A stretch of DNA of 64,000 nucleotides from an uncultured Flavobacteriales bacterium. Lineage in GTDB: Bacteria; Bacteroidota; Bacteroidia; Flavobacteriales_D; Crocinitomicaceae. The stretch lies in NCBI GenBank assembly GCA_905478665.1, contig CAJQJL010000075.1, positions 1 through 64,000 on the forward strand, in the 5' to 3' direction. The position numbers and the translations under genes are program-made. Shown here piece after piece: positions 2,975 through 55,283 of the stretch (position 1 is its first letter; every line of letters starts with the position of its first letter). The notes under the pieces were generated by a model. That model ran no database searches. It was not told the DNA's origin and was given only the letters and a program-made list of their open reading frames with translations.

Positions 2975-3405
2975 AGAAGGTCGCGGTTGATAATCAGATA
3001 TATGGGGAGGCTAATTTACATTGGGGGACATATAAGTAACAAAAAATGACATTTCGTTACCTGATTTTGTTACCCAGCTTTCGGTTCGAAAGAAAGTGAA
3101 TGGAATAAAAAAAGGGAACTTATTTCTGAATTCCTCTAGTGAGTCGTCCGCAACAAAGTTCGAACTGGAATTCAGACTGCCCGACTTAGATGTTGGGTTT
3201 AGTTGATGGTTTTTTCACGAGTCCATAAAAAAATGGACTCAGAGCATTGTCTACTCTAGTAGGACTCCAAGGTAATATGAGTTCATTTTTGCTAGAAGCG
3301 TTAATAGTTCGTAATTTCACCATGACTTGAAATGTCTGATGCGCTGCATGGCTGTTGTCAATATGAACGTCCTTAATTTTTAACCCCAATTTTAAAACAA
3401 AAAAT
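2975..3405. other. left inner end of island, no supported gene
   Basis: The interval contains several GTTAC motifs: AGTAAC at 3035-3040 (a GTTACT on the minus strand), GTTACC at 3056-3061 and TTTGTTACCCA at 3066-3076. Two of these recur near the right end. It also holds a perfect 8-bp hairpin with arms GAGTCCAT (3219-3226) and ATGGACTC (3233-3240) around six A bases. A short minus-strand reading frame exists here but lacks recognisable features. I read the region as attachment-site and promoter DNA for the first cargo gene. Confidence 0.45.
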
Positions 3406-20403: not shown

Positions 20404-21048
20404 ATGAATGTTAAGCTAAGAAACGACGAAAAGATTCGAATCCTGAATGGAGTAGATTTATTTGAGATCATGGCGAGGGTGTTACGGAGGTCACATAAAA
20501 TTGATCGCAAGAAGGAACATTTTTGGGTTGTTGGACTGGATGTTACACAAGAAATATTATTCATTGAATTGATAAGCCTTGGAACTTCAAAAACGACGCA
20601 TTCTGATCCAATGGAGATTTTTAGTCTTGCGTTGAGTAAAAAGGCATATCAAATTGTGTTAGTTCATAACCATCCGTCTGGAGCTTTGAGGCCGTCAGAG
20701 AGTGATCGTACAACTACTCACCGTATGGTGCATATTGGAAGATTTTTGAACCTTCCTGTTTGGGATCATCTAATAATAACAGAGGTGAGTTATTATAGCT
20801 TCTTAGATTCTGGTTTACTTGACCAATTGGAAGCTGACTTGAGTAATATTCCAGATGCCCTAACGGCTGAAACCATGAAGCGAGAAACAGCGGAAAGGAA
20901 TTATGTAATTACAACGACTAACATTGTCATTAAACTTCATCTTCGTAAAACGGAAAAAGATCATATTTCGGAAATAACAGGGGTTGAATTGGAGGAGATA
21001 GACAAAATTATAGCTGATTTTGAGAATGGAGATATAGACGAGCCCTAA
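20404..21048 (+). CDS. RadC-like JAB/MPN-domain protein of the island backbone
   Basis: The 214-residue protein contains the JAMM motif HNHPSGALRPSESD (HxHx10D, residues about 89-102), preceded by the conserved glutamate region and followed by LLDHLIIT-like strand WDHLIITEVSYYSF. These are hallmarks of the RadC family. The N-terminal helix-hairpin-helix of chromosomal RadC is absent, as in many copies carried by Bacteroidota mobile elements. About 75 extra residues follow the JAB domain, which is unusual. Metal-dependent hydrolase activity is predicted from the intact motif, but the substrate is unknown. It marks the boundary between cargo and backbone of the island. Confidence 0.85.
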   Translation: MNVKLRNDEKIRILNGVDLFEIMARVLRRSHKIDRKKEHFWVVGLDVTQEILFIELISLGTSKTTHSDPMEIFSLALSKKAYQIVLVHNHPSGALRPSESDRTTTHRMVHIGRFLNLPVWDHLIITEVSYYSFLDSGLLDQLEADLSNIPDALTAETMKRETAERNYVITTTNIVIKLHLRKTEKDHISEITGVELEEIDKIIADFENGDIDEP

Positions 21049-21060
21049 GATTAGGAAAGG

Positions 21061-21273
21061 ATTTTCTCCCTTCATTTCAGCTTATGTGAAATCCAAATCC
21101 TAGAATTGATCTGTGACGGAAAAACTAACAAGGAGATTTCAGGTTTAATATCCCTAAGTAAAAGAACAATTGAGTCGCATCGTCGCACTATTTCCATTAA
21201 AACAGGGTGCAGTAATGTTGCGCGTTTGGTGGTTCATGCTATTAAGCATGGACACTATTTGATTGATGAATGA
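21061..21273 (+). pseudogene. LuxR-type HTH fragment of a response regulator
   Basis: A frame without an ATG, opening just after the TAG at 21052, encodes SLCEIQILELICDGKTNKEI, SKRTIESHR and KTGCSNVARLVVHAIKHG before the TGA at 21271. This is the full LuxR/NarL winged HTH, but no receiver domain precedes it. It is therefore a 3' remnant of a regulator gene, or possibly expressed from a non-ATG start. It sits 12 bases after the RadC-like gene. Confidence 0.65.
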
Positions 21274-21340
21274 AATAGGCTCGGGAAAGTCTAATATATT
21301 CTCTCACTTAAATAATTTGTTAGGTAAGGAAATCATTATG

Positions 21341-21420
21341 TATGATTGGGTATCATTGAAAATGATTGTAAACCATTGCGTATGATTGTAAACCATTGCG
21401 TATGATTGTAAATCATTAAA
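21341..21420 (+). repeat. four tandem 20-bp repeats (iteron-like)
   Basis: Units start at 21341, 21361, 21381 and 21401. The second and third are nearly identical (consensus TATGATTGTAAACCATTGCG) and the outer two are degenerate. The half-sites ATGATT and AACCATT give each unit partial dyad symmetry. The array ends 31 bases before the ATG at 21452. It resembles iterons or an operator array bound by an element-encoded protein. Confidence 0.7.
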
Positions 21421-21451
21421 ATAACTCGAATTGATTACTCGTTCTATTTAG

Positions 21452-22312
21452 ATGGACATAGATAAATCAAAATTAGAGTTTGATGAGTTATCAGAATACT
21501 ATCTCAATCAACTTGAAAGAAACTACTTAGAAAAAATTGAAACTTCTGGAAATAAGCAATATGCTAGGGAGTACTATAGAGCTGTTCTTTTTGAGCGAAA
21601 CCCCAAAATACCTAAAGACTCTTTCTTTTTTGAAATATTAACCAAAACCTTTCTTCATTTCTTTCGCTTAAACACGAATTCTGAAGATGCAGTCTTGGCA
21701 ACGTTCGATAACCTTTATGAGATCAAAGAACGAGCGAAAAAAGAACTGCTGCTTGCACTTGAATTGTATGAAGCTGAATCCATTAGTGACGAGGAAATAT
21801 ATTCCATTCAATCCATGGTTGAAAAGGAAAATCATCTACTATCGCTTGAATATTATGAGCTTAGTGATTTACTTGCCTTTTTCTTAGCTATTAGAAAATT
21901 ACTCGAAAAGTATCCTAAGGATGAGAAGATCGAGCTTTTCAGTATTGACGCACCACTAGAAGACAAGCCTAGGAGCGGAACCCAGAGAATACATGATTAT
22001 ACACTTGTCTTCACTGAACGTCAACAGATGTTTGCTCTGTATTTTCTAATGGAACAATTGGGACTCAGCGCAGCACGAGATTATAATAAGTCCGATCTAG
22101 CTCGTTTTGCTCATTTGCTCTCCAAACAGCCTTGGACTAAGTTAGACAACTCTGGGAAGTACAAAACATTAAAGAATCTGATCAGTAAAAAGTCAAGTAC
22201 GCAAAACATAAACGATCTTGATTCTATTCTCGGTTTCTTTGAAGCTCTTGACCTTCAGAAAGCTGTGAAAATGATTAATGCTGAGATCGAATATCAACAG
22301 AAAAAACAATAA
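21452..22312 (+). CDS. unassigned island backbone protein A
   Basis: This 286-residue soluble, helix-rich protein has no signal peptide or TM segment. The N-terminal half (residues 1-170) is acidic and rich in Glu/Leu helices. The C-terminal third begins with FTERQQMFALYFLMEQLGLS, continues with NKSDLARFAHLLSK and YKTLKNLISK, and ends DLQKAVKMINAEIE. It has the feel of a conserved C-terminal domain found in hypothetical proteins of Bacteroidota mobile elements, but I cannot name the family. Its start lies just after the 20-bp repeat array, so it may bind that array and control replication, excision or transcription. Confidence 0.65.
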   Translation: MDIDKSKLEFDELSEYYLNQLERNYLEKIETSGNKQYAREYYRAVLFERNPKIPKDSFFFEILTKTFLHFFRLNTNSEDAVLATFDNLYEIKERAKKELLLALELYEAESISDEEIYSIQSMVEKENHLLSLEYYELSDLLAFFLAIRKLLEKYPKDEKIELFSIDAPLEDKPRSGTQRIHDYTLVFTERQQMFALYFLMEQLGLSAARDYNKSDLARFAHLLSKQPWTKLDNSGKYKTLKNLISKKSSTQNINDLDSILGFFEALDLQKAVKMINAEIEYQQKKQ

Positions 22313-22370
22313 TTTCTGAAATTCGGGGTACTCAAACCCGACCCCGACCCTTTGTTTGTTTCCGATCTTC

Positions 22371-23207
22371 ATGTTAGGAAAAAACAATTTTATGGAACAT
22401 GGGAATAACGAGCGGAGGAATAAGGGTAAGAGTGTTCCTTCCAGAAAGAGTCAACAGATTTTCACTAAGAGTTACAGTGACGAACAAGTCGGTCGCTTAA
22501 AGCGATTATTACAAAATCAACATCAGAGAGAAGCGGAACGTTTTTATGCTATCAAAGTTGATGGGGAGTTCTGCGTATACAAAACATCAAATGTTCGCAT
22601 TTTCGATGAATACAAAGAATTCGTTGATGGAAAGACAGAAACCGTCGAAATAATACTCTATTTCGGTAGGTCGAACAACTGTAATCGACACATTTTCTAT
22701 TTAAAGGATCAACCGCAAAATGGTCTAAGTGGTGTTGATGTGGAAGCTCAAATTCAAGAAGCTCTGGAGAGACAAGAACAAAAGCATCATATAGAATCAC
22801 TGGAAGGAATTGTAGAAGAGCAAGAACAAATCATTGATGGGCAAGAAAAGGAACTCGAAGAACTGAGAGGGAAACACGACGTGAGGGGCATGATACAAGA
22901 TGGACTTTCTTTGTTGAATGCTTACAATAAGTCCAAGACTCCTGATTCTGGACTAGCAGGAACGAAACCCGCAAGTAGCGAAGTTGAATTTGAGGCTTGT
23001 AACGAGTCAGAAAAAGAAACTCAGAAAGAAGAGACCGAAGAACAGAAAAAATGCAGAGAACTGTACGAAGAGCTATACGCGTATTATGGAGAAAAGGAAC
23101 TTTACAAATTTTGTGGGTTGATGGATGCAATTAAAAATTCAGATGTTCTAAGGGACGGGGTTAATCAACTAATAAAAGAAGAAAAAGAACGACGAAAAGA
23201 ACAATAA
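22371..23207 (+). CDS. unassigned coiled-coil backbone protein B
   Basis: The ATG at 22371 (rather than the upstream TTG at 22356) gives 278 residues. The N-terminal 120 residues are mixed alpha/beta, with EREAERFYAIKVDG-like and EIILYFGRSNNCNRHIFYL strands. Residues about 140-180 form a strongly charged coiled coil (ALERQEQKHHIESLEGIVEE and onward). A C-terminal helical domain (about 225-278) contains YEELYAYYGEKELYKFCGL. No catalytic motif or leader is visible. Its position between gene A and the integrase suggests a backbone role, perhaps structural or DNA-associated. Function unknown. Confidence 0.6.
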   Translation: MLGKNNFMEHGNNERRNKGKSVPSRKSQQIFTKSYSDEQVGRLKRLLQNQHQREAERFYAIKVDGEFCVYKTSNVRIFDEYKEFVDGKTETVEIILYFGRSNNCNRHIFYLKDQPQNGLSGVDVEAQIQEALERQEQKHHIESLEGIVEEQEQIIDGQEKELEELRGKHDVRGMIQDGLSLLNAYNKSKTPDSGLAGTKPASSEVEFEACNESEKETQKEETEEQKKCRELYEELYAYYGEKELYKFCGLMDAIKNSDVLRDGVNQLIKEEKERRKEQ

Positions 23208-23219
23208 AAATATGAAATT

Positions 23220-23498
23220 ATGAAAAGTAAAGACTTAATAGATGAATTAATGGCACTCCAATTTTTAAAGCAACAGGAAGTTTATGAACTTAAATTACAA
23301 CTGTTAGGATTGTCTCGCTCCAATGCCCAAAAAGTAGTTGGGCTGTTGTGTAGATCAAAATGTGAGGTGATTTCCATCTTTGCTCAAGAGATTGAAAGAA
23401 AAGACTTTCGTGAGGCTTTGGAAGTCGCCTCAGAAATTGGTGAACTCAATGAATTGATGAAATCTTATGAGCAAATATTATGTAGGACAGTTGATTGA
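23220..23498 (+). CDS. unassigned small helical backbone protein C
   Basis: This 92-residue protein is fully helical and charged, with two cysteines close together (LLCRSKCEV). It has no leader or known motif. Its last bases overlap the next reading frame (a TTG start at 23495), and it begins 12 bases after gene B. The arrangement indicates one operon of backbone genes leading to the integrase. Its size and position would suit an excisionase or a partner protein, but no wHTH signature is evident. Confidence 0.55.
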   Translation: MKSKDLIDELMALQFLKQQEVYELKLQLLGLSRSNAQKVVGLLCRSKCEVISIFAQEIERKDFREALEVASEIGELNELMKSYEQILCRTVD

Positions 23499-24112
23499 AA
23501 TTAGCATTAGCAATAATGCAGGAGAAGAAAGAACTACTGCAAGAGAAAATTTTAGGTAACAAATTCAAACAGCTAATAGAGATGAAAGAAAGAGATGGAG
23601 ATAAGAAGGGGAGGAGCTATTTAAAAATGGAACAAGTGCTAACATTTGAGGTTTTAAAAAAGATATTCAGTGATTGTAATTTCAACATGGCACATTATTT
23701 GCGAATCATCAGTAAATTAAGGATTTTATTTGATTTATTATTTGAATCCTATTATTTTAAAGATAAAGAGGACGAAGGTTCAGAGATAGAGTTGAAAGGG
23801 CTGAAAAAAATATTGAACTATAAAGATCTAAGGTCAGTGATTAATTGGTGCAAAATGAAGGGTGTATTTGTGCTTGGGCAAGGAAATAATCAATTCGTGA
23901 ACAAGTACGAGTTCTTATTGGCATTCCATAAACCATTTATCAAAGACTTGAAGAGTAAACATAAGAACTGGAAAGAAATGTTTGTAGGATACTTGAAAGG
24001 GGATATGGTCAGTTTACTGGCTGGAGATACAGAAAATAGTGCAATTTCAAAACCCTATCGCCCCAATAGTAAAACGGAAGTTTCTTTTTTAGATAAAATC
24101 AGAAAATTATGA
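23495..24112 (+). CDS. unassigned backbone protein D immediately upstream of integrase
   Basis: The frame is open from a TTG at 23495 (overlapping the preceding stop) or the first ATG at 23516, and gives about 198-205 residues. The protein is basic, without leader or TM segment. Residues about 45-160 alternate helices and short strands (LTFEVLKKIFSDCNFNM, LRSVINWCKMKGVFVLG), which could be a winged-helix-type DNA-binding region. Its stop overlaps the integrase ATG by four bases, a coupling often seen for recombination directionality factors. That role is a hypothesis. Confidence 0.6.
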   Translation: MKLALAIMQEKKELLQEKILGNKFKQLIEMKERDGDKKGRSYLKMEQVLTFEVLKKIFSDCNFNMAHYLRIISKLRILFDLLFESYYFKDKEDEGSEIELKGLKKILNYKDLRSVINWCKMKGVFVLGQGNNQFVNKYEFLLAFHKPFIKDLKSKHKNWKEMFVGYLKGDMVSLLAGDTENSAISKPYRPNSKTEVSFLDKIRKL

Positions 24113-25443
24113 ATTCAAAAAAACCACTAATTGTAGATAAAAGAGATAAAGTAAACGGTCTATATACGTATTGCCAGAAATGTCAAAGACTAATTGAAAA
24201 CCGAGTATGTAGCAAAACAGGAAAACGCCTTAGTACGTGTAAAAATACTGATCAACACATGTTCAAAGCTATTATAGCAGTTCCAGGCACTAACGGAAAA
24301 AAGCGTAAGACTCGATTGTTTAAAACAAGAGATTTGTCAAAGGCAATCGAATTGAAATTGGAGTTTGAGCGAGGGTTAAAGTCAACAGATTATCAATCAA
24401 CCGATGTACATATTATTCAAAAGGAAGCAAAGCCAGAATTGTTGATCGAATGCATGGCTATGTATATTGGGTATCTCAATAATGTAGGGGTTGAGGCACA
24501 CAAGGTCAAAGTTAGAACTCAGAAACATATCAATGAGACGGAATATTACTTTGAGAAATTGTGCAAGTGTCTATTAAAAAATCGGATCGACCATACTTTT
24601 TTCAAAGTGGATCAATTGAATGATCGAATAGTCGCTTTGTTTCATTCCTATCTCATAGAGAATTTGAACTATGCCAACAAGACTTATAATAAGATAATTG
24701 GTTTGTTTCGACAATTTCTTAATTGGCTAATACTGAAGAAAGGTTATAACATTGAAAATCCATTTGTTGATGTGGCTCGTAGAAGGGAGAATGTCAACAA
24801 AACTATATTGACTTCGGACGAATTCGACGTGCTTTTAAAAACCATAAAACCTGAACACGGATACAAAAAACTTCCTTCAGGGGAAAGAAAAAATCAATAT
24901 CGAGACTGGCTTTCCGATTGCTTCAAGTTAGCCTTAGAGACGGGGTTGAGACGAGAGGAATTCATGACTTTAAAGTATTCAGACATTTTATGTGATGAAG
25001 AAGGGCTTCCTCAGTTTTTTGTAGTGGAGAACTTTAAAGTGAATAGAATAAAGGGGTTGGATTCTGAAACGGGAGAGAAAAAATTTGTACCGATTACACA
25101 AGGATTAATGAATTTACTTACTTCTATTGGATATGAAAAATACAAGGATACGGATCACTATATTATTGGGGCAGAAGAGAGGTCTTCAAGAAATACACTA
25201 ATCGGATTTGTGTCAAAAGCATTTACGCATTACTGGAAGCTAACAGGAATTGAAAAGAATGTACAATTGAAGCATTTACGAAAAACCTATCTTACTTCTT
25301 TGGTGGAGCATTTTGGCGACAAAGCTCCTGTGATTAGTAATCATTCAGGGATTGATGTTTTAAAGAAACACTATGTAAATGATAAGCAGTTAGCTAGTGC
25401 AGCAAAGAACTTTTCTGTATTCAAAACGAAGGAGGAAAAATGA
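24109..25443 (+). CDS. int: tyrosine recombinase (integrase) of the island
   Basis: The 444-residue integrase carries a short N-terminal Cys cluster (C22, C25, C34, C44, possibly H50) that looks like a zinc ribbon. A SAM-like core-binding domain (about 110-225) follows, then the catalytic domain (about 240-435). The catalytic Arg lies in ETGLRREEF (about 278), the HxxR box in HLRKT (about 388), the late His in NHSG (about 412), and the nucleophile Tyr in KKHYV (about 422). It would integrate and excise the island at tRNA-fMet, whose 3' end begins 88 bases downstream in convergent orientation. The zinc-ribbon-like extension is less common. Confidence 0.93.
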   Translation: MNSKKPLIVDKRDKVNGLYTYCQKCQRLIENRVCSKTGKRLSTCKNTDQHMFKAIIAVPGTNGKKRKTRLFKTRDLSKAIELKLEFERGLKSTDYQSTDVHIIQKEAKPELLIECMAMYIGYLNNVGVEAHKVKVRTQKHINETEYYFEKLCKCLLKNRIDHTFFKVDQLNDRIVALFHSYLIENLNYANKTYNKIIGLFRQFLNWLILKKGYNIENPFVDVARRRENVNKTILTSDEFDVLLKTIKPEHGYKKLPSGERKNQYRDWLSDCFKLALETGLRREEFMTLKYSDILCDEEGLPQFFVVENFKVNRIKGLDSETGEKKFVPITQGLMNLLTSIGYEKYKDTDHYIIGAEERSSRNTLIGFVSKAFTHYWKLTGIEKNVQLKHLRKTYLTSLVEHFGDKAPVISNHSGIDVLKKHYVNDKQLASAAKNFSVFKTKEEK

Positions 25444-25446
25444 AGT

Positions 25447-25470
25447 TTTGTTACCCGTTATTGTTACCCA
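25447..25470 (+). promoter_or_regulatory. candidate integrase arm-type sites
   Basis: Two direct copies of GTTACCC (25450-25456 and 25463-25469) lie immediately after the integrase stop. The 10-base string TTTGTTACCC also occurs at 3066-3075 near the opposite end of the island. Such paired motifs are typical of arm-type integrase or Xis binding sites. Confidence 0.4.
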
Positions 25471-25528: not shown

Positions 25529-25604
<76 letters not shown>

Positions 25605-54905: not shown

Positions 54906-55283
54906 AACTCTGCACTTGTTTGTAGAAAACCCTCCCCCTGTGTCCCCCTCCAAAGGGGGAATTCTTAATTCATTGATTGGAGTCTGGTTTACTGAGATAT
55001 TATTTAATAACCAAGAATACGTTCCCTCTCCAAAGTAGGAGTTCTTAAAAACTTTGATTGGGGTTTAGTTCATTGAGCTATTATTTAATAGCAAGAATAC
55101 GTTCCCACTTCGGAGGAGAGGAAGCACTGTTTCTGAAGACCGAAGGGACACAGAGGGAAGACAATCAAAGTATTGCAAGGACTACCAAAGAGAGTCTCAC
55201 ATTCCTAAAAAATCAGCAACATGAGTCACAAAAACGCCCGCTCCAGTGTATGAAGCGGGCTTATCATTTGTTCTTTCGTATTC
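54906..55283. repeat. degenerate repeats right of the DUF559 gene
   Basis: Two copies of the unit TTGATTGGGGTTTAG...TTTAATAGCAAGAATACGTTCCC lie at about 54973-55025 and 55053-55107. C-rich/G-rich inverted tracts occur at 54930-54960. The left-hand repeat block (54316-54539) shares the same unit, so the gene is bracketed by related sequence. No gene is supported here. Confidence 0.55.
55236..55260 (-). terminator. intrinsic terminator of the T9SS gene at 55284-56363
   Basis: Arms GCCCGCT (55236-55242) and AGCGGGC (55254-55260) form a GC-rich hairpin. On the minus strand it is followed by GTTTTTGTG, so it terminates the leftward gene. Confidence 0.8.

Follow-up and report, generated by a model that had tools for sequence, protein, structure and literature searches.

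A helically phased decamer array as a likely multi-site operator before the integration operon of a Flavobacteriales genomic island

We describe nine 10-bp direct repeats, arrayed in register with the DNA helix, directly upstream of an operon that ends in the integrase of a genomic island in an uncultured Flavobacteriales bacterium. The array lies within a 64,000-nucleotide stretch of DNA, hereafter the window, and is not a chance repeat. It very probably serves the promoter of the island's integration operon as a helically phased multi-site operator. Our complete reading, in which this operator works with an ECF-like promoter, the first protein of the operon (F0) is its likely reader and the whole forms an excision switch, has a probability of roughly 0.6.

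The array occupies positions 21330-21419 on the forward strand (core ATSATTG / ACCATTG). Its unit is 10 bp long, with an NNATSATTGN-like pattern, and the nine consecutive copies run in the order AAATCATTAT GTATGATTGG GTATCATTGA AAATGATTGT AAACCATTGC GTATGATTGT AAACCATTGC GTATGATTGT AAATCATTAA. Tandem Repeats Finder reported periods of 10, 20 and 40 between 21332 and 21422, and identity at a lag of 20 bp was 36/40, compared with a shuffle 95% limit of 24. Two decamer types, ATGATTG and ACCATTG (GTATGATTGT and AAACCATTGC, respectively), take turns along the array, which produces both a 20-bp period and a partial dyad symmetry. An earlier sequence-only reading had reported four tandem 20-bp repeats with partial dyad symmetry; the repeats and the symmetry are present, and the unit and count are corrected to nine decamers of 10 bp. 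The same reading had placed the repeats directly upstream of unknown backbone genes; the array lies 33 bp before the family-less F0. At the array, we found no Rfam match and no RNA structure (fold z 0.74).

Five co-directional ORFs on the forward strand, from F0 to a tyrosine recombinase, form the operon, one more than the four genes previously counted, although the integrase is indeed the last. F0, the first, encodes a 286-aa unnamed protein (21452-22312). It is followed by F1, a coiled-coil-like protein of the F0 module (22356-23207, with a possible alternative start at an internal ATG near 22392), a 92-aa ORF without a family (23220-23498), a 205-aa ORF whose C-terminal half resembles, by eye, an excisionase-type helix-turn-helix (23495-24112), and the tyrosine recombinase, the island integrase (24109-25443). 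Upstream lies a gene for a RadC-like JAB protein (20404-21048, forward strand), which likewise precedes F0 in locus L036. Because the recombinase adjoins tRNA-Met, the 3' part of which recurs as an exact 47-bp copy at the far end, we set the island limits at 2928-25575 (about 22.6 kb), with the left attachment repeat at 2928-2974 and the right one at 25529-25575. The cargo is of the copper/silver efflux type and comprises an RND pump, an outer-membrane protein, a CusB-like protein and a P-type ATPase. Elsewhere in the window, we also observed a tandem repeat of 80 bp x 2 at 54943-55106 and one of 63 bp x 3.3 at 2066-2276, the latter inside a leucine-rich-repeat-like ORF.

Distances from the array to attR and attL are 4.1 kb and 18 kb, respectively, and no array copies occur near either site. 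Instead, the att ends carry TTGTTACCC repeats, candidate arm-type sites of the integrase, of which the window holds 4 copies against 0.5 expected: two at 25448-25469 on the forward strand (starts 25448 and 25461) and further copies starting at 3067 (+) and 3479 (-), none of them more than about 600 bp from an att end. Since these candidates cluster at the att ends, the decamer array need not consist of arm sites. We rejected that assignment, as TTGTTACCC fits it better and a sister array on another contig lies beside a serine recombinase.

Similar arrays recur before F0 in other islands. For each locus, we scored repeats at lags of 7-30 bp upstream of F0 and ranked the lags in comparison with the remainder of the locus (L032 has no upstream sequence). 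A lag of 10, 20 or 21 bp, corresponding to one or two turns of DNA, ranked first upstream of F0 in 17/22 loci and was usually unmatched elsewhere in the locus. Under a uniform rule (lags 10, 20 and 21, first-order Markov shuffles, 300 bp upstream, p<=0.05), a significant array was present in 15/21 F0 loci, which are partly non-independent (L033 and L065 are close, as are L067-L069), versus 1/19 rteC genes and 0/6 relatives sharing only the C-terminal domain of F0. The core is AACCATTR/GTATSATTR in the window, L029, L075 and L076, AACAGTTAAG in L034, L109 and L110, ACAGATTAA in L035, GATCA in L036, ATGGTGTAAAGT in L067-L069 and AGATAA in L031. Clades keep the layout, that is spacing, promoter and F0, while the repeat sequence changes. 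In the F0 loci with serine recombinases (L038 and L066), no clear array was found, and the promoter is kept.

Between the array and the start codon sits a conserved promoter-like pattern, GTA[ACT]-N17/18-CGTT[AC]. Its second box, CGTT[AC], was located no more than 30 nt from the start codon in all 18 of the F0 genes first examined, compared with 7% of background ORFs, and GTA lay 21-22 nt upstream of it in 17/18. The joint pattern preceded F0 in 17/19 loci, the window being among the two non-matching ones, and none of 19 rteC genes. Other spacings of the pair are essentially absent before F0, and background matches show no peak at N17/18. In the window, the element (21420-21445, forward strand) is a degenerate form: the -10-like CGTTCT (21440-21445) is present at -12, 12 nt before the ATG, and the first, -35-like box, AATAAC (21420-21425), is weak. 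Loci of the window clade have the final decamer immediately next to this first box. ECF-sigma promoters combine (G)TAAC-like -35 and CGTT-like -10 boxes at a spacing of 16-17 bp, and by this analogy the conserved element may be ECF-type. Helical phasing, a promoter-like neighbor and recurrence before F0 thus favor the operator half of the previous suggestion of iterons or a multi-site operator.

F0 itself belongs to no family in Pfam, NCBIfam, PHROG or PADLOC. An AlphaFold2 model built with six sequences (pLDDT 74, pTM 0.51) is all-helical, with an N-domain (about residues 10-153), a C-domain (about 189-285) and a low-confidence linker between them. Foldseek comparison of this model with the PDB and viral models gave no match, the sequence had no match in the PDB, and no recognised DNA-binding fold was found in the model. 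Against the RteC profile (PF09357), F0 had no significant match: hhalign gave a collinear alignment reaching into the C-domain at a probability of 13% (E 0.002, not significant), which tops the scores of ten other families compared. F0 was therefore not assigned to RteC, the match being below significance. F0 relatives occur in 20/399 genomes of the order (about 5%) and are rare beyond it; the named loci are all from Flavobacteriales, such as Fluviicola sp. and Crocinitomicaceae. Their recurring module comprises F2, F1, HTH_17 proteins and a tyrosine or serine recombinase. We found no F0 relatives on 72,556 plasmids or on phages, and neither F0 nor F2 in viral contigs; the alignment of these diverse F0 proteins has no stretch conserved enough for contig scans. 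Judged by sequence, the C-domain is an unnamed mobile C-terminal module, and in other families (L111, L112, L113, L118, L114, L115, L119) it is fused to different N-domains, with no array or promoter. Separately, L029 and L030, in two genomes (G085 and G099) that are assigned to different families, have identical F0, F1, F3 and neighboring proteins, which may reflect recent transfer or an assembly or binning mix-up.

Several comparisons connect the array to the N-domain of F0. Across 12 loci, similarity of array cores correlated with N-domain identity when array limits were set by eye (Mantel r 0.52, p 0.001, driven by one clade of four loci), and not with C-domain identity (r -0.02). An earlier Mantel test with automatic array limits and whole-protein identity was weaker (p 0.03). 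Flanking DNA showed no similarity of the kind seen for the arrays. The F0 of L029 is a mosaic: its N-domain (about 45% identity) groups with the window clade, and its C-domain groups with another clade, being about 39% identical to L036/L035 but 23% to that of the window. The L029 array matches the window type, in line with the N-domain. L109 and L110, found after these patterns had been seen, both have an array and the promoter, and their core is that of L034, the locus closest to them in the N-domain. The other-family proteins that pair the F0 C-domain with a different N-domain lack both array and promoter. Array and N-domain are adjacent, and joint inheritance by recombination could account for part of the covariation. 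Two other module proteins were rejected as readers: F1, which was not found in the array-bearing group L033/L065/L067-L069, and the HTH_17 protein F3, which is too conserved (61-77% identical) between loci with completely different cores. We infer that a protein binds the array, presumably F0, and we give an even chance that F0, the best single candidate, is its reader, ahead of a response regulator and excisionase-type proteins.

In the mechanism that we propose, protomers would sit on the array cooperatively, one per helical turn and on the same face of the DNA. The occupied array would lie directly upstream of the ECF-sigma-like promoter that would drive F0, F1, the two ORFs and the integrase. 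F0, the most likely reader through its N-terminal helical domain, would set its own level together with that of the integrase, and thereby act as an excision switch. The array either touches the -35-like box or sits upstream of it, and for that reason activation of the promoter is favored over the opposite effect by about 60:40. A bolder and more tentative proposal is that the F0 N-domain may represent a hitherto undescribed, entirely helical kind of DNA-binding domain, which would recognise helically phased decamers cooperatively. The core would be re-specified in each clade, and the domain would control excision of a Flavobacteriales island family through an ECF-type promoter. Speaking against our complete reading are a window-type core elsewhere in the genome without F0, the F0 model without a recognised DNA-binding fold, the serine-recombinase loci in which F0 has no clear array, and the degenerate -35-like box of the window.

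That second core lies on contig C20 (G000:C20:23876-23933) and is the sole relative of the array in its own genome, 84% identical over 58 bp. Three phased cores, with one mismatch allowed, occur in this genome only at the window array and on C20; two further one-mismatch genome matches to the three-core pattern look like chance. The C20 array is directly 3' of an intact NarL/LuxR-type response-regulator gene and near a serine recombinase, with no F0 gene. In the window, a remnant of such a regulator, comprising the HTH part only and lacking a normal start codon, lies between radC and the array (21055-21273, forward strand), and its protein sequence is still close to that of the intact C20 regulator. 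An unlikely alternative is that the array is the site of the C20 response regulator, acting in trans on the window island. At both places the array has stayed together with the regulator or its remnant, and L036 and L037 likewise have response-regulator genes next to their arrays. NarL-family regulators such as BvgA can fill arrays at roughly one protomer for each helical turn. However, the window retains only the HTH remnant, and the other F0 loci retrieved showed no response regulator, although L029, L075 and L076 share the window core. The C20 control region (L002:1501-1715 and about 2021-2065) carries several phased arrays of differing sequence: besides the ATSATTG array, a second one with a 21-bp period, of the AATAGTGGGG type, and possibly a third, 10-bp array of the AAGTGCARTA type. 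These extra arrays precede a 97-aa ORF, which the N-terminal half of the window's 205-aa ORF resembles, and the serine recombinase.

Somewhat less probable still is that the array is the filament site of an excisionase-type operon protein (Xis/Cox/Apl-like) autoregulating the promoter. Most F0 modules encode HTH_17 proteins. Recombination directionality factors (RDFs) bind direct repeats spaced by one DNA turn and often act as excisionase and regulator at once (PMC7498355, PMC11963761). Nevertheless, F3 stays conserved across loci of unrelated cores, as noted above, whereas in the window clade the HTH protein varies (the 205-aa ORF, F3 or F10) and the core is constant. The distances to attR and attL also argue that this is not an att-site array, while the low sequence specificity of RDFs leaves this alternative some room.

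F0 as reader of a phased operator also competes with the suggestion that the array is an origin. Helically spaced direct repeats directly before an operon's first gene are the textbook layout of iterons, the binding sites of replication initiators, and the array has this layout in common with theta-replicating plasmids. As the origin of an excised circle it is nonetheless very improbable, and we rejected it: the island proteins scanned contained no Rep-family or replication-initiator domain, the F0 model is all-helical rather than two winged helices, F0 relatives are absent from the plasmids and phages searched, and iterons have units of 17-22 bp rather than 10 bp. Of the earlier proposal of an origin or control region of the island, the control region is what survives. 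Although slippage is a known source of short AT-rich tandem repeats, a functionless chance or slippage repeat is the least credible explanation, given the negative controls, the 84% identity to the C20 array and the many islands in which F0 is preceded by repeats of the same period and another sequence.

In the open-access literature, we found nothing relevant on such arrays in Flavobacteriales and no description of how Flavobacteriales genomic islands decide to leave the chromosome. The control region of one such island can now be pointed to, as an array, a promoter and a first gene, and clades that differ in core and share a layout offer a panel for how an unnamed protein family recognises DNA. 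RteC of Bacteroides CTnDOT is a Bacteroidota mobile-element regulator of a length similar to F0, but within the same bacterial family, rteC genes lack both the array and the promoter element. The array resembles the operators of phage 186 Apl, P2 Cox and lambda Xis, which also comprise several direct repeats one turn apart near integration/excision promoters (PMC7498355). Unlike those operators, it is far from the att sites, and its core covaries with F0, a helical protein that is not a winged helix-turn-helix, while the conserved HTH_17 protein does not track it. RdfS of ICEMlSymR7A is likewise an oligomerising DNA-binding protein that, at its own promoter, controls an island int/rdf operon, but its sites have no consensus motif (PMC11963761), whereas the repeats of F0 loci are explicit and clade-specific. 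The element resembles in kind the Apl/Cox/Xis operators and RdfS-controlled promoters; what appears to be new is its reader, together with a core that is re-specified from clade to clade.
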